From the NCBI RefSeq assembly GCF_017874715.1, contig NZ_JAGGLR010000021.1, positions 62,001-126,000 on the forward strand: DNA of 64,000 bases, given 5' to 3'. The notes beneath the pieces are model-generated. The model was not told where the DNA came from, made no database searches, and saw nothing but the letters and a program-made list of their open reading frames with translations. The translations under genes were made by a program, and so were the position numbers. Below, piece by piece: positions 6,039-55,013 of this stretch (position 1 is its first letter; each line of letters begins with the position of its first letter). The DNA comes from Streptomyces iranensis. Lineage in GTDB: Bacteria > Actinomycetota > Actinomycetes > Streptomycetales > Streptomycetaceae.

Positions 6039-8630
<2,592 letters not shown>

Positions 8631-8689
8631 GTCCCTGTGCTCCTCCTCGCTCCGATCTTCCCATCCCTGCCCTACCCAACCTCCGTAAA

Positions 8690-8710
8690 GTTGAGTCTAT
8701 TCCACTCAAC
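8690..8710. promoter_or_regulatory. HAIR element (HspR operator) upstream of clpB
   Basis: GTTGAGT at 8690-8696, a 7-nt spacer, then ACTCAAC at 8704-8710. This matches the HspR-associated inverted repeat consensus CTTGAGT-N7-ACTCAAG with one symmetric change at each end. It lies 60 bp upstream of the clpB start and 39 bp upstream of the divergent PPOX gene, which could therefore also be affected. Confidence 0.9.
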
Positions 8711-26804: not shown

Positions 26805-26875
26805 GCGGGTGTAGTTTAATGGTAGAACATGAGCTTCCCAAGCTCAGAGCGCGAGTTCGATTCTCGTCACCCGCT
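26805..26875 (+). tRNA. tRNA-Gly (anticodon CCC)
   Basis: A full cloverleaf: acceptor GCGGGTG/CACCCGC (26805-26811 with 26868-26874), D-arm around GTTTAATGGTAGAAC, anticodon arm TGAGC-TTCCCAA-GCTCA giving anticodon CCC, T-arm GCGAG-TTCGATT-CTCGT, discriminator T. The CCA is encoded at 26876-26878. Its 3' half is the attachment site for the integrative elements to its right, and integration leaves the gene intact. Confidence 0.97.
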
Positions 26876-26878
26876 CCA
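26835..26878 (+). repeat. att copy A (tRNA-Gly 3' end)
   Basis: The 44-bp segment from the anticodon loop (TTCCCAAGCTCAGAGCGCG) to the CCA recurs at 48003-48046 (1 mismatch) and 52249-52292 (2 mismatches). Similarity between copies A and C continues another roughly 50 bp through the terminator hairpin to TTGTCTAGACCTCT, as expected if the right flank came from an element carrying the same attP. Confidence 0.9.
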
Positions 26879-33264: not shown

Positions 33265-34416
33265 TCAGGCTTCCCGCGCCTGGGGTGCTGGGGAAAGGGC
33301 CTTACCGCGCGCCGCACGCACCTTTGCGTCGATGCCCTCCGCGACCTCCTGCTGCCGCTCCTCGTCGGAGTGCTGGTAGATCAGCGCGGCCTTCTCCGAC
33401 GACTGCCCGGCCCGGACCATCGTGTCCTTGAGCGTTGCCCCGGACTGGGTGGAGAGGGTGTGGCCGGTATGGCGGAGGTCGTAGAAGCGGAAGTCCTCCG
33501 GCAGCCCGACCTTGGCACGAGCCCTGCGCCACTTACGGCCGAAGGAGGAACGCCGGAACGGGGCGCCCTTCTCGCCGACGAACAGCAGGCCGTTGAGCTC
33601 CTTCTCGGCGAACCAGTCGAGGTGGCGCTTCACCTCGATGTAGAGGAAGCCGGGCAGGTAGACGGTACGCACACCGGCATCCGACTTCGTGTCGCCCTCG
33701 GCCCGACGGCCGGTGGTCAGCTCAGGCGCCGCCTCCCGTACCCGCGCGGCGAGAGGGTCGAGCGTGACGTCGGGCCGCCGGAGAGCCGCCTGCTCCTCCG
33801 GGCGCATCGGACCGTAGGCGCCGAAGTAGACCATCAGCCGCCACCGCGGTCCCACGGCATCGGCGAGCGCATCGACCTGTTCGACGGTTGCGGTCGGCCG
33901 CTCCTTGGCCTTCTCGGTACCGGCGCCCTTGATCCGGCAGGGGTTGCGGCGGATCAGCTCGTCGTCGGCCGCGGTCTCCATGATGGCCTTGAGCAGCCGG
34001 TAGGACTTGGCGACCGTCGTCGCACCCGTCACCGTGAGCCGCTCGGCTCGCCAGCTCCGGACACCGGGCGGCGTGAGCTCGTCCAGGTCCATGTCGCCGA
34101 AGGCGGGCAGGATGTGCAGCCGCAGGAGCCTGCGGTACAGCTCATCCGTGGTCGCGGAGAGGCCGCGCTCCTCCACCCACGTCAGCGCGTACGCCTCGAA
34201 GTTCACGGCCCCGACATCCGGATCGACCCAGAGATTGCGCTCGATGTCGGCCTGGGTCAGCGTGAGCCAGGTCTGCGCGTCGGTCTTGGAGGCGAAGGTC
34301 TCCGGCGCCTTCCGCCGGGACCCGTCCGGCGCCCAGTACCGGGCCTGCCATCGGCCCGAGGGCAGTTGGCGCACCGTGCCGAATTCGCGCCGTCGCTGCG
34401 GCTTGCGTCCCGCCAT
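33265..34416 (-). CDS. int: tyrosine site-specific integrase 1
   Basis: A 383-residue phage-type integrase: AP2-like arm domain (1-60), SAM-like core-binding domain (about 70-165) and catalytic domain with Arg in AYGPMRPEEQAAL, HxxR in YDLRHTGHTLS and Tyr in AALIYQHS. It is strikingly similar to integrase 2 at 52344 over its whole length (roughly two-thirds identical by eye, near-identical in the C-terminal half), so both probably target the same tRNA-Gly att. Unlike integrase 2 it is not next to an att copy but 6.4 kb from copy A. Its ATG overlaps the xis stop (ATGA). Confidence 0.93.
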   Translation of the reverse strand: MAGRKPQRRREFGTVRQLPSGRWQARYWAPDGSRRKAPETFASKTDAQTWLTLTQADIERNLWVDPDVGAVNFEAYALTWVEERGLSATTDELYRRLLRLHILPAFGDMDLDELTPPGVRSWRAERLTVTGATTVAKSYRLLKAIMETAADDELIRRNPCRIKGAGTEKAKERPTATVEQVDALADAVGPRWRLMVYFGAYGPMRPEEQAALRRPDVTLDPLAARVREAAPELTTGRRAEGDTKSDAGVRTVYLPGFLYIEVKRHLDWFAEKELNGLLFVGEKGAPFRRSSFGRKWRRARAKVGLPEDFRFYDLRHTGHTLSTQSGATLKDTMVRAGQSSEKAALIYQHSDEERQQEVAEGIDAKVRAARGKALSPAPQAREA

Positions 34417-34634
34417 CAGGCCACCCTCCGGTAGCGCGAGCGCATGTCGCGGCGGGATGCGACGGTGTGAGCCTCGATGTATTCGGCCAGAACGCTCTCG
34501 GGGATGCGGACGGGCTTGCCCATCTTGACGTAGCGGATACGCCGCTCGGCGATGAGCCGCCGCACGAAGCGCACGCCCGTGCCGAGCCGCTCGGCCGTCT
34601 CTTCCACGGTGAGCAGGCGATCAGATGTGTTCAC
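34416..34634 (-). CDS. xis: excisionase (MerR-type HTH) 1
   Basis: A 72-residue DNA-binding protein: LLTVEETAERLGTGVRFVRR then LIAERRIRYVKMGKPVRIPE is the excisionase-type winged HTH, ending in a basic tail (SRRDMRSRYRR). It directs excision with the integrase and overlaps int by 4 nt. The frame is open to 34733; GTG 34634 is chosen by analogy with the second xis, whose HTH starts within a few residues of the Met. Confidence 0.85.
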   Translation of the reverse strand: MNTSDRLLTVEETAERLGTGVRFVRRLIAERRIRYVKMGKPVRIPESVLAEYIEAHTVASRRDMRSRYRRVA

Positions 34635-34787
34635 CTCCGTTCCGGTGCGCGCGGTCTGCTGGGAGGCATGGGGTATCGCGTGTCGGCGCAAGGGGAGTGA
34701 GTCCTCTCGTGGCAGGCGTGGGTGCGGCAACACCGGCCTGCCGGTTCGGTCGATCGTGAGGGATGGCGGTTGCGATGGGAGCCGAGG

Positions 34788-38454: not shown

Positions 38455-39096
38455 ATGCATGACCAGCACCACGAACCCACCATCGACCAGGAGGAGATGT
38501 CCACGACCGCAACCACCAGCGCAGCAAGGTATGGCGTTGGACCGTCCAAGGGCCGGTCCAACGCGGATGCCTCCGCCCCGGGGGTGGCGGAGGACCTCGG
38601 GCACCAGGGGGTGCCCGAGGAGGAACAGCCCGCTGACGTGTCCGAGCAGTCGCCCGTCGTCCGCGCCAACGACGCTCTGCATCGTGTCGCCCGCCGTCGT
38701 GCCCGCGAAGACGTCCAGCGCAAGGAGCGTGTCGATGTCCGCTACAGCGTCGACGAGAAGCACGCGATCACCACCAGGGCCGAGCAGATGGAGATTGCCG
38801 CCGCCCACCTCGTCGGCGCCCTGGTCATGGCCTACCTCGACGGCGACTTCCACCTCCCCGGCCAGCGCACCCAGTTCGACGACGTGATCGACGAGCTCTC
38901 CGCCCTGCGCGCGCAGGTCGCCGCGATCGGCAACAACGTCAACCAGATCGCGTTCCGCCTCAACGCCGGGGGCGATCCACACCCTGTGGACACCGCCGTC
39001 CTGGCCCGGGCGGAGCGCACCTTGGACACCGTCCGCGTGACGATCCAGGACATCGCGGCGGTCATGAACGAAGCCGTCTCCGCGAAGGCGGCCTGA
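38455..39096 (+). CDS. mobC: MobC relaxosome accessory protein
   Basis: A 213-residue protein. The first 90 residues are disordered; the C-terminal part (DVRYSVDEKHAITTRAEQME... and ...ALRAQVAAIGNNVNQIAFRL) is the MobC ribbon-helix-helix/helical core. It assists the relaxase at oriT. The stop abuts the mobA start (TGAATG). ATG 38455 has GGAG at 9 nt; 38497 is an alternative. Confidence 0.85.
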   Translation: MHDQHHEPTIDQEEMSTTATTSAARYGVGPSKGRSNADASAPGVAEDLGHQGVPEEEQPADVSEQSPVVRANDALHRVARRRAREDVQRKERVDVRYSVDEKHAITTRAEQMEIAAAHLVGALVMAYLDGDFHLPGQRTQFDDVIDELSALRAQVAAIGNNVNQIAFRLNAGGDPHPVDTAVLARAERTLDTVRVTIQDIAAVMNEAVSAKAA

Positions 39097-40821
39097 ATGA
39101 TCGCGAAGATCAGCAGCGGCAAGGACACCGCCGGCCTGATCAGGTACCTCTACGGCCCCGGCCGGGCCAACGAGCACACCGACCCGCACCTGGTCGCCTC
39201 CTGGGACGGCTTCGCCCCCGACCCCGGCCGCAGCAACGACTTCAACGCCACCAGGAAGCGCCTCGTTCAGGACCTCGACCTACGCCTCCACCAGGCCAAG
39301 CGCCTCGGCCGGGCCCCGAAGCAGCACGTATGGCACTGCTCCGTCCGTGCCTCCCCAGAGGACCGGCTCCTCAGTGACGACGAATGGGCCGCGGTCGCCC
39401 GCCGCATCGTGGCCGCCACCGGAATCGCCCCCGAAGGCGACCCGGACGGCTGCCGCTGGGTCGCCGTCCGCCACGCGGAGGACCACATCCACATCGCCGC
39501 CACGAAGGTCCGCGGCGACCTGCGCACCGCCCGCCACTGGAACGACTACCTCACCGCCGACAAAGAACTGGCTGCCGTCGAGAAGGACTACGGCCTCCAG
39601 CAGGTCATGCGTGGCGACCGCACCGCCGCGAAGCGCCCCACCCGTGCCGAGCAGGAGAAGGCCCACCGCACCGGCCACCAGCGGACCGCCCGCGAGCGCC
39701 TGCGCTCCACCGTCCGCACCGCGGTCTCGGTCGCCACCAGCCCCGATGAATTCCTGGACATCCTCACCCGCACCGACAGCGTGCACGTGGACATCCAGTA
39801 CTTCCCGTCCGGCGATATACGCGGCTACAAGGTCGCTCTCGACGGCGACACCAACGCCGCAGGCGAGCCCATCTGGCACTCCGGCTCCAAGCTCGCCCCC
39901 GACCTGTCCTTCCCCAAGATCCGCGAACGCCTCACTGACCTCGACCCCACGACAACCACCGCACCGGAAAACCACCGCCGTCCCAACCCCTGGCACCAAG
40001 CCACCGCAGCCGCCGAACGCATCCCCACCCGCCTCGCACAGGCCGACGACGCAGCCGCCCAGGCTCACATCGCCGCCTTCGGCGAAGCCCTCGACGCCCT
40101 GCCACTCCTCGCCCCCAAGGACCTCCGACCCCAGCTCCAGCAGGCCGCCATCACCTTCGAACGCGCCACCCGCTCCCGCATCCGCGCCCAACAGGACCAG
40201 GCCCGCGCCCTACGCGGCGCCATCCGCGCCCTACGCACCACTTCCGTGACGGGGGACGGGACCGGCCTTGCGATGTTCCTCGACATCGCCCTCCTGGTCG
40301 TCACCGCTGCCACCCACTGGCACCAGCTCCGCCAACACGACCAGCAGGCCACCGCCGCCCGCCAGGCCCTGATCCACCTGCGCACTGCTTACGAAGAGGC
40401 CGCTGCAGCGCCCCTGGCCGCCCTTGCTCAGCGCAAACCGCCTCAGCGGTTGGTCGAGCGGCTCGCCCGCCAGCTACACCGGGTCGTACCCGCGTACGCG
40501 GAGCAGGTCCTCAGCGATCCTGCGTGGGACGCTCTCGCCACCGCTCTCATAGATGCCGAGCACTCAGGTCACGTCCCCGAGCGCATCCTCCAGCAAGCCG
40601 CCAACGAGCGTGCACTCGACGATGCCCGTTCCTCGGCTCAAGTTCTGGTCTGGCGTGTCCACCGCCTCGCCGAACGGTCGGCACCCAGCGCTCGCGCCCT
40701 CGCGGCTCAAGCCCATAGCAGCATCCAAAAGGTGCCGTCAGGGCAACAGCTGCTGGAACAGGGCTCGGCATCGCCCCAGCTTCGCAGCCCAGCTGAGCCG
40801 ACGCGCATACGTCGCCGCTGA
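39097..40821 (+). CDS. mobA: MobA-type relaxase
   Basis: A 574-residue relaxase. The N-terminal domain starts MIAKISSGKDTAGLIRYLYG and has the HxxxHxH metal motif H126, H130, H132 (RHAEDHIHIAATKVRGDLRT). A long helical C-terminus follows with one hydrophobic segment (GLAMFLDIALLVVTAATHW, about residues 390-410). It nicks oriT and starts single-strand transfer. Together with MobC it makes this interval a mobilisable element needing a helper, in contrast to the double-strand FtsK/TraB transfer system of the element right of att C. Confidence 0.9.
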   Translation: MIAKISSGKDTAGLIRYLYGPGRANEHTDPHLVASWDGFAPDPGRSNDFNATRKRLVQDLDLRLHQAKRLGRAPKQHVWHCSVRASPEDRLLSDDEWAAVARRIVAATGIAPEGDPDGCRWVAVRHAEDHIHIAATKVRGDLRTARHWNDYLTADKELAAVEKDYGLQQVMRGDRTAAKRPTRAEQEKAHRTGHQRTARERLRSTVRTAVSVATSPDEFLDILTRTDSVHVDIQYFPSGDIRGYKVALDGDTNAAGEPIWHSGSKLAPDLSFPKIRERLTDLDPTTTTAPENHRRPNPWHQATAAAERIPTRLAQADDAAAQAHIAAFGEALDALPLLAPKDLRPQLQQAAITFERATRSRIRAQQDQARALRGAIRALRTTSVTGDGTGLAMFLDIALLVVTAATHWHQLRQHDQQATAARQALIHLRTAYEEAAAAPLAALAQRKPPQRLVERLARQLHRVVPAYAEQVLSDPAWDALATALIDAEHSGHVPERILQQAANERALDDARSSAQVLVWRVHRLAERSAPSARALAAQAHSSIQKVPSGQQLLEQGSASPQLRSPAEPTRIRRR

Positions 40822-43563: not shown

Positions 43564-43786
43564 GCAAGCTCCAACCATGAGCGGTGAGGGCCGCCTTCTC
43601 GTCCCTCGATGCCAGCTTCTCCTTCCCCCGGACCTCGTGGAGGACGGTGTGATCACTCTCGCTTCGCCGAGCGCAACCGCTCCCCGGGAGTCGCGCGGGA
43701 AGTTACCGGGCGCGTTCAACGACGGCATACCCCCTGCTCACCCGCAGCAGGGGAGGACTCCGCAAACGGACGCTCCGGAGAGACGC

Positions 43787-44503
43787 ATGGACCTGCCCGA
43801 CCGCGTCGTCGTGTCCTGCACCCGCACTCCTGAGCGGGTCGCCCAGCTCCGGCGCATCAGCGCGGCACACCTGCGCCTGTGGGGAGTCAGCGACTGCATC
43901 GAGACAGCAACGCTGCTCATCAGCGAACTCGTCACCAACGCCATCCGATACGGAGAGAGGGACGACATCAGCTTCTCCCTTTACCACCTCAAGGGAGAGG
44001 TACGGGTCGACGTGGACGACGGAACCCCCGGCCGCCCCAGGGTGAAGCGGCCCGCCTTCGACAAGGAGACCGGACGCGGGATGCTCATCGTCGACACCCT
44101 CGCCGACGAATGGGGTACCAGCGACGACGGCAGCCGGACCTGGGCCACCATGACCGTCCCGACACCGATGAGGACCACCCCCGGCTTCTGGTGTGAATGG
44201 CGCGGGGCCGACGGAGAACGCCTGGCCGCATGCGCATCCGCCGGGCCGACATCGGCGATCAACTGGGCCCGCACACAAATGCGGGTCATCGCTTCCACCA
44301 TCGGAGAACCCCTGCTCGCGGATCTCTGGGACTGGCTGTCCGATGGGTGGCGGGACGCCGCCGCAGCACTCGAACGCGGCGAGGACTTCACGCTCCCTCT
44401 CGTCGCCGGCCCTCACGCGTTCGTCTGGCACGCACGCCCCGTGCGCTTCCTCCCCATGGCTGCCCTGGAGGGAGGTGAACCGGCGTGCTCCGCTACCGGG
44501 TAG
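43787..44503 (+). CDS. RsbW-like ATP-binding protein with fused C-terminal domain
   Basis: A 238-residue protein. Residues 5-130 are an RsbW/SpoIIAB-type HATPase (N box ELVTNAIRYG, G1 VDVDDGTPGRP, G2 TGRGMLIVDTLADEWG). Residues 135-235 form a second domain (PGFWCEWRGADGERLA ... LLADLWDWLSDGWRDAAAAL ... FLPMAAL) that appears as a separate gene product at 60536 in the other element. ATG 43787 has GGAG 6 nt upstream. Proteins of this kind may bind sigma factors or act as stand-alone kinases; the substrate is unknown. Confidence 0.82.
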   Translation: MDLPDRVVVSCTRTPERVAQLRRISAAHLRLWGVSDCIETATLLISELVTNAIRYGERDDISFSLYHLKGEVRVDVDDGTPGRPRVKRPAFDKETGRGMLIVDTLADEWGTSDDGSRTWATMTVPTPMRTTPGFWCEWRGADGERLAACASAGPTSAINWARTQMRVIASTIGEPLLADLWDWLSDGWRDAAAALERGEDFTLPLVAGPHAFVWHARPVRFLPMAALEGGEPACSATG

Positions 44504-45206: not shown

Positions 45207-46178
45207 ATGAGCGTTACCGCGCCACCGGCGCGAAGTAGCAGCACCACAAGTCCACTTCGAAGTCGTCCGGCCGTCCGTCGTTTTCTGGAGTGTCCGGCAC
45301 TCACCCCCGCCGACCTTTCCATGGTGCTGCTCGTCACCGAGAAGCAGGCCGACCGGCCCATGCCGACTCTCACGGTTCCGGAAATCCCCGCAGCGATGCG
45401 CGAGGCCCGATTACACGGCATCCGATCGGTCAAGATCTTCGCCGAGTCCGCCCGACGGGACGCCACAGGCGAGATCTCGCTCGTACCCGACGCACTCATG
45501 GCCCGGGCCGTCCGCGCCGCGAAGGACGCTGAACCGGACCTCGCGGTCATGACGGAGACGTGCCTGTGCTCGTACACCGACTCCGGGCTCTGCTACGTCA
45601 CCGACGTACGGGGCCGCCCGGACATCCCCGCCACGGTCGATGTCACCGCCCGGCAGGCCGTCGCACACGCGGTTGCGGGGGCCGACATCGTGGGCCCGGC
45701 CTCCATGGTGCTCGGCACCACGCAAGGCGCCCGCACCGCGCTGAACGACCAGGGCTACGGCAGCGTCTCCGTCATGCCCCACGTGATCTTCTGGAGCAGC
45801 CTCTACGAGGGCTTTCGCCGCACCATGGGCGCCACACCCAAGGCAGGCGTCGACCGCGAGTTCCAGATCAACCCCGGCAAGCCCGAGCAGTTCATCGACG
45901 CCGCACTCCAGCTCGTCCAAGACGGTGCCGACATGCTCCTGCTGGAGCCCGCCATGTTCACCGCCGACGTGCTCACCCACCTCAAGCAGCACACCCGAGC
46001 GCCGCTCTTCCCGTTCTCGGTCTCCGGCGAGTACACCGCGCTCACGTCCCTCGACGCCAAGACCGGCCGACGAGACGTCCGCAGGCTCATCGAACTCTTC
46101 ACGATGTTGAAGCGCGCCGGAGCCGACGCCAGCGTCACGTACGCGGCCCTGGACATCGCCCGGCAGCTCAGCGGCTAA
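45207..46178 (+). CDS. HemB (porphobilinogen synthase) homologue without catalytic lysines
   Basis: A 323-residue class I-aldolase-fold protein aligned along its length with 5-aminolevulinate dehydratase. The zinc Cys triad is kept (TCLCSYTDSGLC: C119, C121, C129). However, the region of the first Schiff-base Lys (usual MSYSxKF) reads MPHVIFW (190-196) with no Lys, the second Lys (usual MVKPA) is Glu247 (LLLEPA), and the PS..MDG aspartate is also changed (GPASMVLG). The SGEY motif is kept. By the known mechanism it cannot be a porphobilinogen synthase, so another reaction or a regulatory role is inferred. ATG 45207 follows GAGGG. It converges on a hemC gene. Confidence 0.82.
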   Translation: MSVTAPPARSSSTTSPLRSRPAVRRFLECPALTPADLSMVLLVTEKQADRPMPTLTVPEIPAAMREARLHGIRSVKIFAESARRDATGEISLVPDALMARAVRAAKDAEPDLAVMTETCLCSYTDSGLCYVTDVRGRPDIPATVDVTARQAVAHAVAGADIVGPASMVLGTTQGARTALNDQGYGSVSVMPHVIFWSSLYEGFRRTMGATPKAGVDREFQINPGKPEQFIDAALQLVQDGADMLLLEPAMFTADVLTHLKQHTRAPLFPFSVSGEYTALTSLDAKTGRRDVRRLIELFTMLKRAGADASVTYAALDIARQLSG

Positions 46179-47110
46179 ACCGCAGCCTCGGCCCGTATCT
46201 CGCCAAGAATAGAACGCGCGCCCTGGCCGATCAGCTCTCCGGCCAGGGCCTCCCCGAGCTTTTCCGGCTCGCTGAGCGGCCCGGAAAGCGAGCCGGAAAT
46301 CTGATGGGTCCCGTCAAGCGACGTCACCTGCGCATAAAGCGAAAGCGATCCGTGCGAGCGGACCTCGGCATACGCACCCACGGGCACGCTGCATCCGCCA
46401 TGCAATTCGGCAAGTAGCGCGCGCTCTGCCCGCACTTGGGCGTCCACCGCGAGATCACCCGAGGTGGAAAGGATCTCCCGAATCGCTGTGTTTTCCTCGC
46501 GTACCTGAACCCCCAGAGCCCCTTGCCCGGGCGACGGCGGAAACAGATCGATCGGCAGAATCTCGCCGATAGCGCCATCCAACCCGAGACGCCGAAGCCC
46601 CGCGACCGCCAGAACCACGGCGTCAAGCCCCATGGTCTCGATCTTCTTCAACCGTGGCGGGACATTACCCCGAATCGGCACGACCTCAATATCAGGTCGC
46701 ACCGCCAGCAGCTGGGCGATGCGCCGCGGAGCCCCCGTCCCCACCCGCGCCCCCTTGGGAAGCCCGTCCAGCGTGGCCCCACACAGGGCATCCCGCGCAT
46801 CCTCCCGGCCCGGCGGGGGAACCAGAATGAGTCCCGGCGGATTCGCCGTAGGAAGATCCTTCAGGGAATGGATGACCACATCCACGTCTCCACGAGCCAA
46901 CGCGGCTTCCTGCTCGCTACTGAACGCACTGCCACCGCTCACAGCCGAGACGTCCGAAAGCAGCGACTTCCTGTCCCTGTCACCCCCTTCGAGAATCACT
47001 CGATGAGTAAAGGCGACCTCAGGGAATCGCTCACGCAAGGGAGCAAGGTATTCGCGCACCTGAACCTTGGCAAGGTTACTTGCACGCGAGCCTACGAAGT
47101 ACGTGTCCAC
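46175..47110 (-). CDS. hemC: HemC (hydroxymethylbilane synthase) homologue
   Basis: A 311-residue porphobilinogen deaminase with its catalytic set complete: GSRASNLAKVQ (Arg), VIHSLKDLP with the catalytic Asp (about 85), GTGAPRRIAQ, IRGNVPPRLKK, and the dipyrromethane-cofactor Cys in LHGGCSVPVGAY (about 240). It polymerises four porphobilinogens to hydroxymethylbilane. GTG 47110, 9 nt after GGGAG, is preferred over TTG 47119. It overlaps the HemB-like gene end-to-end by 4 nt. Base composition is visibly lower in GC than its neighbours, suggesting a separate origin. It is a cargo paralogue; the housekeeping hemC should lie elsewhere. Confidence 0.9.
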   Translation of the reverse strand: MDTYFVGSRASNLAKVQVREYLAPLRERFPEVAFTHRVILEGGDRDRKSLLSDVSAVSGGSAFSSEQEAALARGDVDVVIHSLKDLPTANPPGLILVPPPGREDARDALCGATLDGLPKGARVGTGAPRRIAQLLAVRPDIEVVPIRGNVPPRLKKIETMGLDAVVLAVAGLRRLGLDGAIGEILPIDLFPPSPGQGALGVQVREENTAIREILSTSGDLAVDAQVRAERALLAELHGGCSVPVGAYAEVRSHGSLSLYAQVTSLDGTHQISGSLSGPLSEPEKLGEALAGELIGQGARSILGEIRAEAAV

Positions 47111-47493
47111 GGCAATCAACTCCCGACAGGTGATGGGCCGTCAAGTCATCGTACTCGCCAGGGCAATGCCATTATGCCGACCCATTGTCGGGATAATCGA
47201 CGTTGACTTCTTTCCCGAAATGTTAGGGCACGCTGGAGCTGGGCCTACTCGCCCAAGATCAGTCACGCGAGCTAACTACCACCCGGGCCCTCCAGCCACA
47301 GGCCGGAAGCCGCATGAGAACACGGCTGGATCAGGCCCACGCACAGCCAACCGAAGCTGACGCGCGCGACGCCGCTGGGTAGCGGACGCCGACCGCTGCC
47401 CCCGGTTCCCACCCTCCTGGACGTTTTCGCCGCCTCGTCGCTCTAACAGTTCGACAGCAAGGACACTGGCGGAGAGGCACGGAGTTGAGCGGG
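47111..47493. other. 383-bp promoter region of hemC
   Basis: The stretch 47140-47240 is AT-richer than the surroundings, with a TTGACT at 47201 and a CATAAT-like sequence near 47172 on the minus strand that could serve hemC. CCGAC-CCATT-GTCGG is a small inverted repeat at 47178-47192. No gene seen. Confidence 0.35.
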
Positions 47494-48004: not shown

Positions 48005-48046
48005 CCCAAGCTCAGAGCGCGAGTTCGATTCTCCTCACCCGCTCCA
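48003..48046 (+). repeat. att copy B
   Basis: A 44-bp copy of the tRNA-Gly 3' end with one mismatch to copy A (C for G in the T-stem at 48034, which disrupts the fifth T-stem pair). No 5' tRNA half is present, so it is an attachment remnant and not a tRNA gene. About 80 bp further right is a paired GTGCCC-type motif. Confidence 0.88.
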
Positions 48047-52248: not shown

Positions 52249-52292
52249 TTCCCAAGCTCAGAGCGCGGGTTCGATTCCCGTCACCCGCTCCA
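52249..52292 (+). repeat. att copy C
   Basis: A 44-bp copy of the tRNA-Gly 3' end with two differences from copy A, both in the T-stem and compensatory (GCGGG/CCCGT instead of GCGAG/CTCGT). It is followed by the terminator hairpin and by integrase 2, the canonical att-int order, so it is the left end of the AICE that fills the remaining window. Confidence 0.92.
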
Positions 52293-52343: not shown

Positions 52344-53510
52344 TTATGCCTCCCGTGCCCGTTGCGTGCCCGATGGCCCGTCGGCTTGCTGGGCCGTCTC
52401 ACGGTGTGCCCGTACGCGAGCGTCCAGGGCGGCGGCGACCTCCTTCTGACGGTCGAGGTTGGAGTGCTGGTAGATCAGCGCGGCCCGCTCGGAGGACTGG
52501 CCGGCACGGACCATGGTGTCTTTGAGCGTCGCCCCGGATTGGGTCGAGAGCGTGTGCCCGGTGTGACGAAGATCGTAGAAACGGAAGTCGTCGGGAAGTC
52601 CGACTTTCGCCCGCGCCCGTCGCCATTTCCGCCCGAAGGAAGACCGACGGAACGGCGCCCCCTTCTCCCCAACGAACAGCAACCCGTTGGGCTCCTTCTC
52701 GGCGAACCACTTCAGATGGCGCTCCAGGTCCTTCCGTAGGAAGCCGGGCAGGACGATGAACCGCTTCCCCGCTTCGGACTTGGTGTCACCGACAACGCGC
52801 CGCCCTGTCGTCAGCTCGGGAGCGGCCCGGCGCACCCATACACCGACCGTTTCCAGGTCCACGTCAGGCCGCCGCAGCTCGGCTTGCTCCTCCGGCCGTG
52901 CGGGCCCGTACGCCGCGATGTAGACCATGAGGCGCCAGCGGGGCCCGATCGCGTCCGCGAGGGCGTCCACCTGGTCCACAGTGGCGACGGGTCGCTCAGG
53001 AGCCGACTCCTTGCCCGCCCCTCGAATGCGGCATGGATTGCGGCGGATCAGCTCGTCCTCAACCGCCGTTTCCAGGATCGCTTTCACCAGCCGGTACGAC
53101 TTGGCGACGGTCGTTTCCCCGGTGGCCTTGAGCCGCTCAGCCCGCCATGTGCGGACTCTGGGCGGGGTGATCTCATCCAGGTCCCAGGCCCGGAAGGTGG
53201 GCTGTATGTGCAGCCGCAGAAGGCGCCGGTACAGCTCTTCAGTGGTCGCGGAGAGGTCCCGTTCATCGACCCACTGCGCGGCGTACTCGCCGAAGTTGAC
53301 CGCCCCCGCGTCGGGGTCCTGCCAGTCGCCCTTGCGTACCTCCGTCTGCTGCTCCGCCAGCCAGTCATCTGCCTCCCCGGCCGTGGCGAAGGTGACTGGT
53401 GCCGGGCGGTCGATGCCATCGGGGCCGAGGTACCGCGCCTGATAGCGACCGGAGGGCAGCTTGCGAACACGCCCGAAGCGCCGCTTCTTCGATGGCTTCT
53501 TCTTCGGCAT
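52344..53510 (-). CDS. int: tyrosine site-specific integrase 2
   Basis: A 388-residue integrase with arm-binding, core-binding and catalytic domains. Arg in AYGPARPEEQAEL, HxxR in YDLRHTGHTLS and Tyr in AALIYQHS complete the active site. It ends 50 bp from att C, as in pSAM2-like elements. It is nearly the same as integrase 1 in the catalytic half (RRSSFGRKWRRARAKVGLP then DDFRFYDLRHTGHTLS) but differs in the N-terminal arm domain. Its ATG overlaps the xis stop by 1 base in ATGA. Confidence 0.95.
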   Translation of the reverse strand: MPKKKPSKKRRFGRVRKLPSGRYQARYLGPDGIDRPAPVTFATAGEADDWLAEQQTEVRKGDWQDPDAGAVNFGEYAAQWVDERDLSATTEELYRRLLRLHIQPTFRAWDLDEITPPRVRTWRAERLKATGETTVAKSYRLVKAILETAVEDELIRRNPCRIRGAGKESAPERPVATVDQVDALADAIGPRWRLMVYIAAYGPARPEEQAELRRPDVDLETVGVWVRRAAPELTTGRRVVGDTKSEAGKRFIVLPGFLRKDLERHLKWFAEKEPNGLLFVGEKGAPFRRSSFGRKWRRARAKVGLPDDFRFYDLRHTGHTLSTQSGATLKDTMVRAGQSSERAALIYQHSNLDRQKEVAAALDARVRAHRETAQQADGPSGTQRAREA

Positions 53511-53713
53511 CAGGCAGCCCGCCCAAGACGCCGACGCCGAGGCTGCACCGTGTTGGCGTCGATGTACTCCTGAATGACGCTCTCCGGGATGCGGACATGG
53601 CGCCCCACCTTCACGTACTTGATGCGCCGCTCAGCGACCAGCCGCCGAGGGAAACGGTCCGTGGTGCCCAGCAGCTCGGCCACTTGAGCAGCGCTGAGGT
53701 ACCGGTCACGCAT
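53510..53713 (-). CDS. xis: excisionase 2
   Basis: A 67-residue MerR-type HTH protein: YLSAAQVAELLGTTDRFPRR then LVAERRIKYVKVGRHVRIPE, with a basic tail. It overlaps rep by 8 nt on its upstream side and int by ATGA on its downstream side, giving a tight rep-xis-int operon. Confidence 0.88.
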   Translation of the reverse strand: MRDRYLSAAQVAELLGTTDRFPRRLVAERRIKYVKVGRHVRIPESVIQEYIDANTVQPRRRRLGRAA

Positions 53714-55013
53714 GGGTCGGTTCTCCTTCCGTTCCAGGAGCGGGGGTAATGGAGGCGGTGAGCCATTCCTCAGCGGGGGTGAGGCCGGTACCGGCGTAGA
53801 CCCAGTGGGCGAGGACAAGCGTGGTCTCGTCCGGGCCAGTGTCGATGGCCGCAGCCTGAGCACGTCGCCAGGCAGCACGGGCATCCCGGAGCGCGCCGAG
53901 GGTGGTGGAGTAGCGACGAGACTTGGTCGAGAAGTGGCCCCGGAAGCCGAGCATGTGAGCCCAGGCGCGGAGCCGGAGGTGTTCCAGGTCCCTGCGAGCG
54001 CCGAGCGCCCAAGCAGTGCGGACGAGGCGGCAGACGTGCTCGCTGATGTCGAGCTGGGCGACTTCGGCGATGAGCCGTATGGGCCGATCCAGGGCCCCCG
54101 TCGCGGTCTCGGCGCCCTTGGTGGCGTACTTGGCGATGTACGCGGCCACGGCCCGGTCGGTCAGCTCCTGGCCACCGTTGAAGTCGGCGCCTCGGATGGG
54201 CCGTACGTCGAGCTGCCCGCCGAAGGCGAAGGTGTGGGCCCGGCCATCGATGACAGGACCGACGACCTGGGCCCTGGTCGTAGCGGCGGTTGTGGCAGCG
54301 CGGATGGCATCGGTCAGCAGCTCGGCCGTGGCCCAGCCCGGAGGCGGGGTGTCGCCACCCTCGGGGCCGTCGATGCGGATCACGGCATGGAAGTGGACGG
54401 CGCCGCGCTTTTGGTACTCGGCGACCTTGGCGAAGGACAGCCGCGCATGGTCGCGGAAGACCCGTTGCGTGAGCCCGGCCCGCTTGGCGACCTCCCGCCG
54501 CAGGTAGATCGAGAACCGCCGCCACAGCAGGCCCGCGTGAGCGTTCCAGAGCACCGCGGATTCGTAGTCGTAGGTGTCCGGGTTGAGCGGTGTACCAAGT
54601 GCGTCGTCGTCCTGTTCGTGGCGGACGCCGCACCGACACGGACGGACCGTGCCAGCCGGGCCGGTGGGCCGGTTATGGACCGGGCCGAAGCTGGGCGCGG
54701 TAAAGGTGGCGAAGACTCGCGGGTGGGTGGCGACCTGTTCCGGTGTGCCTTTGCCGCCGCGTAGTCCGGCGGTGATCAGGTGGAAGGTGTCGCGGCGGTA
54801 GGTCTCGGCGCAGGCCGCGCACCGGGTGATGCGGCGGTTGTTGCAGCGGACCAGGAGATGCCCAGCAGGCAGCTCGGCGGAGTCCAGGTGTCGGAGAACG
54901 CGGCCGATCTCGCCAGTGTCCTGGTTGAGGTGGTGTTCGGTGCGGTGGCCGTCGAGGCGGATGGGGTTGGTGCAGCCGCCGAGGCCGGAGAGTTGGCGGA
55001 GCAGTGCAGGCAT
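53706..55013 (-). CDS. repSA: RepSA-like replication initiator
   Basis: A 435-residue rolling-circle initiator of the AICE type. The HUH-like motif is GAVHFHAVIRID (H207, H209), and the Tyr motif AYIAKYATKG (Y292/Y296). An N-terminal Cys-rich part (CNNRRITRCAACAETYRRD) is also typical. Reading upstream of ATG 55013, the frame stays open with family-like sequence (PPPLPELGSLAALGTMPALL) back to an ATC codon at 55074-55076 that sits 5 nt after AGAGGAG, so the true start may be a non-canonical AUC or a lost ATG. Confidence 0.88.
   Translation of the reverse strand: MPALLRQLSGLGGCTNPIRLDGHRTEHHLNQDTGEIGRVLRHLDSAELPAGHLLVRCNNRRITRCAACAETYRRDTFHLITAGLRGGKGTPEQVATHPRVFATFTAPSFGPVHNRPTGPAGTVRPCRCGVRHEQDDDALGTPLNPDTYDYESAVLWNAHAGLLWRRFSIYLRREVAKRAGLTQRVFRDHARLSFAKVAEYQKRGAVHFHAVIRIDGPEGGDTPPPGWATAELLTDAIRAATTAATTRAQVVGPVIDGRAHTFAFGGQLDVRPIRGADFNGGQELTDRAVAAYIAKYATKGAETATGALDRPIRLIAEVAQLDISEHVCRLVRTAWALGARRDLEHLRLRAWAHMLGFRGHFSTKSRRYSTTLGALRDARAAWRRAQAAAIDTGPDETTLVLAHWVYAGTGLTPAEEWLTASITPAPGTEGEPTHA

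Follow-up and report, generated by a model that had tools for sequence, protein, structure and literature searches.

Porphobilinogen synthase (PBGS, or ALA dehydratase; HemB; PF00490, NF006762) requires both of its Schiff-base lysines. In a report on the human enzyme (ALAD), activity was completely lost in the K252M variant, and the metal is given as zinc or an iron-sulfur cluster (PMC7725820). HemB2, a paralogue belonging to Zur regulons, occurs where a genome has another HemB and is reported to have lost the zinc cysteines (PMC2770081). According to a 2020 review of tetrapyrrole biosynthesis, every organism that makes tetrapyrroles goes from 5-aminolevulinate to uroporphyrinogen III by the same steps, and descriptions of an alternative were lacking at that time (PMC7242693). 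The gene for housekeeping hydroxymethylbilane synthase (HemC; TIGR00212) stands in the order hemA-hemC-hemD-hemB. Among open-licence PMC papers, we found no description of a HemB that lacks its lysines or of a HemB-HemC accessory module.

Such a pair is present in the window, by which we mean the whole 64,000-nucleotide stretch of Streptomyces iranensis DNA analysed here. It consists of a gene for a HemB-like protein, called HemB' below, and a convergent gene for HemC (residue numbers are those of HemB'):

45207-46178, + strand: HemB' gene, encoding a PBGS-fold protein of 323 aa without either Schiff-base lysine (ORF scan, Pfam, model)
45432-45434, + strand: codon of Lys76, in the second barrel strand (residues 74-79 of the model; alignment)
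45555-45593, + strand: Glu117 and the metal-site triad Cys119/Cys121/Cys129 (alignment)
45774-45794, + strand: MPHVIFW, site of the first Schiff-base lysine strand, where His192 replaces an invariant Tyr
45945-45947, + strand: Glu247 codon, site of the second Schiff-base lysine, in LLLEPA (alignment)
46175-47119, - strand: HemC (hydroxymethylbilane synthase) partner, convergent (Pfam, TIGR00212, motifs)

The active site and distribution of HemB'

The HemB-like open reading frame has two start options (45174/45207-46178, + strand), with a putative ribosome-binding sequence seen by eye 5' of the ATG at 45207, and its stop shares 4 bases with that of HemC. HemB' scored 198 bits against the Pfam ALAD family (PF00490), below the NCBI equivalog cut-off for PBGS (NF006762, 297 bits). 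Its partner matched both HemC domains (PF01379, 190 bits; PF03900, 66 bits) and, at 259 bits, passed the NCBI hemC equivalog cut-off (TIGR00212, 164 bits). An AlphaFold model of HemB' built with 17 relatives had a mean pLDDT of 89.6, and its best structural matches were PBGS (1w5o_A, Z 40.3, rmsd 3.1 over 305 residues). The next structural neighbours (Z 19.5) were class I aldolase barrels, deoxyribose-phosphate aldolase among them, and HemB' shares only the barrel with these. HemB' resembles PBGS in fold, length, Cys triad and lid, in most residues of the carboxylate pocket, and in Ser273 and Glu275.

Thirty-two HemB' loci were collected in total. Scanning genome contigs with HemB' yielded 22 loci from four genera (Streptomyces, Streptoalloteichus, Actinomadura and Microtetraspora); plasmid records added those of Streptomonospora and Rhizobium, and genome searches added seven, the window completing the set. 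One Actinomadura geliboluensis genome held two separate HemB'-HemC loci (L024 and L025). Three loci (L016, L019 and L026) were too broken to align, and residue counts refer to 29 distinct sequences, that is, 32 aligned rows less three flank-truncated repeats.

Both Schiff-base lysines were missing from all 29 distinct HemB' sequences and present in all 35 canonical HemBs of the alignment. Position 247, which is Lys in every canonical sequence (35/35), was Glu in 27/29 HemB' and Gln in 2/29; Glu247 stands where we take the usual class I aldolase lysine to lie, on strand 6. Position 192, an invariant Tyr in canonical HemB (35/35), was His in 27/29 and Asn in 2/29. No Lys occurred nearby in residues 186-200 in any of the 32 aligned HemB' rows, which rules out lysines displaced by a few residues. 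The PS(D/A/G)MMDG-type motif of canonical HemB read PASMVLG in the window, with loss of the DG of MMDG, and the canonical Asp at position 117 (35/35) was replaced by Glu in 29/29. The triad Cys119/121/129 was complete in 29/29. The readings of the first-pass annotation at these sites, namely that both lysine sites are altered, that the Asp of PS..MDG is gone and that the zinc Cys triad is kept, were therefore correct, and the first of them extends to the family.

While losing two lysines, HemB' has gained one. Lys76 was found in 29/29 HemB' and in 0/35 canonical HemBs, which have a hydrophobic residue there without exception (35/35). In the model it would lie in a barrel strand, two residues N-terminal of the invariant Phe78, and Lys76, Glu117, His192 and Glu247 are all predicted to be in barrel strands (74-79, 113-117, 192-195 and 244-247, respectively). 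Besides Lys76, HemB' has one invariant lysine, Lys106, and this residue occurred in 26/35 canonical HemBs as well. Thus, with respect to lysines at shifted positions, which had been named as grounds for giving up the first reading of the protein, none is close by, but an invariant one stands on another barrel strand.

The residues that we take to bind the carboxylates in PBGS are, in HemB' numbering, Arg204, Arg217, Gln220, Ser273 and Tyr312, the last presumably corresponding to the P-side ligand. Gln220 was kept in 29/29, Ser273 in 28/29 (the remaining sequence is frameshifted), Arg204 in 27/29 (Lys in 2) and Arg217 in 27/29 (lost in two), and Tyr312 was kept in 19 of the 28 readable sequences, with His or Phe in 9/28. 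Drift does not describe this pattern: Lys76, Glu117, the Cys triad and Gln220 are fixed throughout, and Glu/Gln247 and His/Asn192 divide 27 to 2.

HemB' formed a single clade (100/100 support) in a tree of 48 rows, comprising 27 HemB' and 21 of the 35 canonical sequences, and the clade kept 100/99 support after the trait columns were dropped. Rhizobium HemB' is a long branch whose exact place is unsure, and Rhizobium HemC is a long branch too in the HemC tree. A clade of lysine-less homologues beside hemC had been proposed as a check of the first-pass annotation, and we find one clade with HemC adjoining. In codon comparisons of the window with 8 relatives, pN/pS was 0.19-0.40 for HemB' and 0.13-0.29 for HemC, as expected under purifying selection, and the barrel residues remain fixed although members span about 40% identity. 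HemB' frames were interrupted in at least 5/32 loci (L009, L016, L019, L021 and L026); unless errors of draft assembly account for these breaks, some strains can therefore do without the gene. Despite these interrupted loci, purifying selection and the fixed residues led us to reject a decaying pseudogene for the family. Judged from its sequences, HemB' is a family and not a broken gene.

Two further identities were rejected. A recent copy of the host's HemB is inconsistent with the host protein itself, which falls in the canonical clade and, unlike HemB', carries Asp at position 121 (the Asp-containing metal-site type) in 6/6 genomes. The zinc-sparing HemB2 is likewise a paralogue where the genome has another HemB, but it is reported to have lost the zinc cysteines (PMC2770081), whereas HemB' keeps the Cys triad and lost the lysines instead. 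A search of the window with a provisional Zur-box pattern gave no match with 3 mismatches.

HemB' loci are rare. An order-level search found HemB' in 8/293 genomes, own genome included, which is a lower bound because this single-protein search at 1e-50 missed G020, a genome found by profile. A class-level search at a stricter E of 1e-84 found it in 3/394 genomes. A phylum search (E 1e-70) matched 66/396 genomes, and the 28 loci inspected beyond G020 and the query genome (G000) were canonical, with both lysines; this inspection covered the stronger matches, without the 36 weaker ones. Proteobacteria were surveyed through plasmid records only, and Rhizobium HemB' rests on one plasmid. Viral contigs held no HemB': one search found nothing and another found 3 loci, all with both lysines, and we dropped a phage origin on this account. 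Phage records gave 9 matches to HemB', judged by identity alone (29-35%).

Partner HemC, neighbouring genes and mobile DNA

HemC lay within about 610 bp of HemB' in 31/32 loci, which had been collected through HemB' alone. The single exception without HemC, L016, also has an interrupted HemB'. The pair occurs in three gene orders. It is convergent in the window, most Streptomyces, Streptoalloteichus and L015; HemB' precedes HemC in most Actinomadura, L125, Rhizobium and L081/L082; and HemC precedes HemB' in Streptomonospora and in Microtetraspora, the latter with a NUDIX gene between.

The window HemC contains HSLKDLP (with the catalytic Asp), GTGAPRR, RGNVPPR and a cofactor Cys in GGC. It thus looks catalytically intact, and the earlier statement that its catalytic Asp, arginines and cofactor Cys are kept is confirmed. 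All partner HemCs that could be read at these sites had kept the cofactor Cys and, in the KD motif, the catalytic Asp. In a HemC tree of 51 rows, the partner label required 8 changes, all forced by well supported branches. Partner HemCs therefore fall in several lineages of the tree, which indicates that HemC was exchanged while the pairing persisted.

Unlike housekeeping HemC, the partner is an extra copy elsewhere in the genome and has no adjoining HemD. We looked for HemD with a query taken from the window's own genome, its fused CobA/HemD frame, and detected it at 15/15 canonical HemC loci (two being the query genome itself) and at 0/32 HemB' loci. Ordinary HemB was present elsewhere in 6/6 genomes checked, and each of the 13 genomes searched for HemC had at least one beyond the partner copy. 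The query genome (12 Mb in 82 contigs) carries two other HemCs and a single further HemB, which lies on contig 27 and keeps both lysines.

Several further HemCs were seen. The third HemC of the query genome (L083; contig 39, approximately 7374-8693, - strand) belongs to a lineage with the motif GHCNSPIAG. Lone HemCs of the lineage other than the partner clade are common in Streptomyces, and L083-like HemCs without HemB' were present, among differing neighbour genes, in many of the examined Streptomyces. A second, divergent HemC stands beside the HemB'-HemC pair at L086 (6025-7083) and L088 (5525-6586), with GFCNAPLAG and with the RGN motif altered to RGP. A Streptomyces plasmid carries a HemC of the partner clade, 60% identical to that of the window (L120, 9992-10933), and no HemB-like gene was among the annotations within 10 kb of it.

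The genes around the pair vary. When the neighbours of 24 loci (L006-L029) were clustered, no family beyond HemB' and HemC was in more than 8 loci, the commonest being a helix-turn-helix regulator (8/24). As no neighbour family occurs in most of the clustered loci, a large biosynthetic cluster was dropped as an explanation. In the window, a HATPase (anti-sigma-like) gene is upstream of HemB'; four loci (L006-L009) have one gene family at a like upstream place, with which the window HATPase was compared by Pfam family only. A few loci have pathway or modifying genes. Glutamyl-tRNA reductase is divergent from HemB' in L015, and in Rhizobium (L029) HemC is followed by genes for a canonical HemB and a GMC oxidoreductase. 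A SAM methyltransferase gene (PF13578) lies between HemB' and HemC in L082 (6172-6744) and L081 (8064-8675), which belong to the HemB' subgroup with Asn192 and Gln247, and a SAM methyltransferase gene is upstream of the pair in L125. A GmrSD-type restriction gene is also near the pair in L125 (2395-4251; genome G876). PADLOC gave no match for HemB' or HemC, so a known defence system was dropped; the methyltransferase of L082 matched PADLOC mad2 over part of the profile.

The pair in the window is surrounded by signs of mobile DNA, listed here together with the upstream HATPase gene:

26805-26878, + strand: tRNA-Gly(CCC), its 3' part repeated downstream; probable attachment site
33268-34416, - strand: tyrosine integrase; the adjacent 34419-34733 encodes a small helix-turn-helix protein
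38455-40821, + strand: MobC-like protein and MobA/VirD2-type relaxase, between the tRNA and the first repeat
43577-44503, + strand: HATPase (anti-sigma-like) protein upstream of HemB' (Pfam)
48006-48045, + strand: direct repeat of the tRNA-Gly 3' part, 40 bases; probable att copy, 0.9 kb past the HemC start
52252-52291, + strand: second direct repeat of the tRNA-Gly 3' part, adjoining the second integrase
52344-55013, - strand: second integrase and pSAM2-type RepSA of a neighbouring element (Pfam)

Between tRNA-Gly and the repeat at 48006 are the integrase, the helix-turn-helix protein, a DnaB-like protein, MobC, the relaxase and the HemB'-HemC pair. With an integrase, a relaxase and probable att direct repeats around the pair, the carrier appears to be an integrative mobilisable element, in agreement with the earlier proposal that the pair is borne on an integrative element. 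The exact left end is uncertain because the integrase is 6 kb from the tRNA. The three copies of the tRNA 3' part from 26805 to 52291 suggest tandem integrative elements at tRNA-Gly(CCC), and the integrases at 33268-34416 and 52344-53510 are related (77% identical over 300 nt).

Mobile genes were sought at the window, L086, L020 and its relatives, the Rhizobium plasmid and phiM2. A relaxase gene is near the pair in L086. L020 has TrwB-like and NlpC/SLT genes, with relatives in five other Actinomadura-type loci by clustering. The Rhizobium HemB' plasmid is conjugative by MOB typing, and the Streptomonospora HemB' locus sits on the plasmid phiM2.

What the pair may do

What could a PBGS fold do without its lysines? 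We consider it most likely, with a confidence kept moderate by the small size of the unit (two genes) and by copies that are rare and in part broken, that HemB' is a non-Schiff-base enzyme that acts with HemC and binds porphobilinogen (PBG) or the pyrrole end of the HemC product. Synthesis of PBG through two Schiff bases would have been given up by HemB'. PBG would be supplied by the HemB of the host, or by one beside the pair as in Rhizobium, and the partner HemC would polymerize it. HemB' would bind PBG, or the PBG-like terminal ring of HemC's linear tetrapyrrole, and would alter this monomer or product using the metal together with Glu/Gln247, His/Asn192, Glu117 and Lys76. Without HemD, the route would not reach uroporphyrinogen III by the known way.

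We infer three things: an enzymatic role for HemB', PBG or bilane as what it binds, and the direction in which the pathway runs. The choice of PBG or the bilane end follows from the Cys triad and the carboxylate residues, most of which are kept, and PBG would be the simplest ligand since it carries the two acid side chains and is the substrate of HemC. The HemC pairing, the lack of HemD nearby and the adjoining pathway genes (L015, L029, L081/L082 and L125) support an enzyme working on PBG or bilane. Against it, no more than two genes make up the recurrent unit, few for a biosynthetic pathway, and among tailoring genes only the methyltransferase recurs, in two loci. The changes at Tyr312, the two losses of Arg217 and the interrupted frames also count against it.

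Lost catalytic residues in a kept fold would be expected equally of a sensor or scaffold. HemB' might thus be a non-catalytic partner: a sensor of PBG or metal, a scaffold, or an allosteric controller of the adjacent HemC or, by mixed assembly, of the host HemB octamer. We regard this as clearly less probable, while giving it more weight than any other alternative. The lysines of covalent catalysis are gone while the fold, metal triad and pocket are kept, the pairing with HemC is strict in convergent and tandem orders alike, and consistent tailoring genes were not seen in the 24 clustered loci. However, a mere binder needs less strictness than is seen at Lys76, Glu247, His192 and Glu117, which are fixed at about 40% identity. 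Since the adjacent HemCs belong to several lineages, a specific contact would also have needed rebuilding with every new partner. The metal site of host HemB is of the Asp type (Asp 121) in 6/6 genomes, unlike that of HemB'.

The first-pass annotation had suggested that HemB' might feed HemC. A supply of PBG by the canonical mechanism is unlikely, given that, in the human study, K252M at the position of Glu247 was dead (PMC7725820); Lys76 leaves a small opening. HemB' might then still make PBG or a close analogue through a Schiff base on this relocated lysine in strand 2, and feed it directly to HemC. Such a role would suit the HemC pairing, and the lysine is invariant in HemB', hydrophobic in canonical HemB (35/35) and, in the model, in a barrel strand just before Phe78. 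Class I aldolases with the catalytic lysine on different strands exist. Nevertheless, the idea is improbable: known PBGS needs two lysines and only one is new, Lys106 being common to both groups, and Glu247 occupies the P-side Schiff-base site. A PBG maker would also be redundant because the checked genomes have their own HemB and Rhizobium has a canonical HemB beside the pair.

Slightly more doubtful still is a two-gene accessory of mobile elements whose purpose lies outside biosynthesis. It might deprive the host or a competing element of PBG, or produce pyrroles that are photoactive or bind metal and serve for attack or defence. The mobile DNA at the window, L086, the Actinomadura loci, the Rhizobium plasmid and phiM2 would be in keeping with this, as would the GmrSD-type gene of L125. 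On the other hand, HemB' and HemC had no PADLOC match, consistent defence neighbours were not seen among the clustered loci, and the matches in phage records are probably ordinary HemB. Duplicated heme genes that are neutral or in decay and travel with mobile DNA would account for the sparse occurrence (8/293 genomes of the order and 3/394 of the class, the latter at a stricter cut-off) and for the interrupted frames. This reading is already disfavoured, and very improbable, in view of the purifying selection on both genes, the fixed new residues, a pairing that survives rearrangement and HemC exchange, and one deep clade in place of repeated recent copies.

Returning to an enzyme that acts with HemC on PBG or the bilane end, its fullest form is more tentative, and we would rather expect it to need revision. 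HemB' would represent a new enzyme family, in which the PBGS barrel carries out a non-covalent modification of PBG or the bilane end that depends on the metal, Glu and Lys76. Its two genes would form an obligatory module in which HemC can be exchanged freely. Mobile elements would have carried this module through the actinomycetes and to Rhizobium, and it would open an oligopyrrole route outside the uroporphyrinogen III pathway. The earlier description of the pair as a repurposed tetrapyrrole-like branch is partly supported.

Within a known fold, HemB' is a real and conserved subfamily that has apparently not been described before, and its link to HemC is strong. Databases that name proteins by fold alone would label it porphobilinogen synthase. 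It offers a clean test of how catalysis, or signalling, is possible in a fold built around two Schiff-base lysines once both are gone. Being conserved, mobile and free of HemD, the HemB'-HemC module would be a natural place for chemistry that leaves the common route, and the pair hints at a branch of pyrrole chemistry that is still unexplored.
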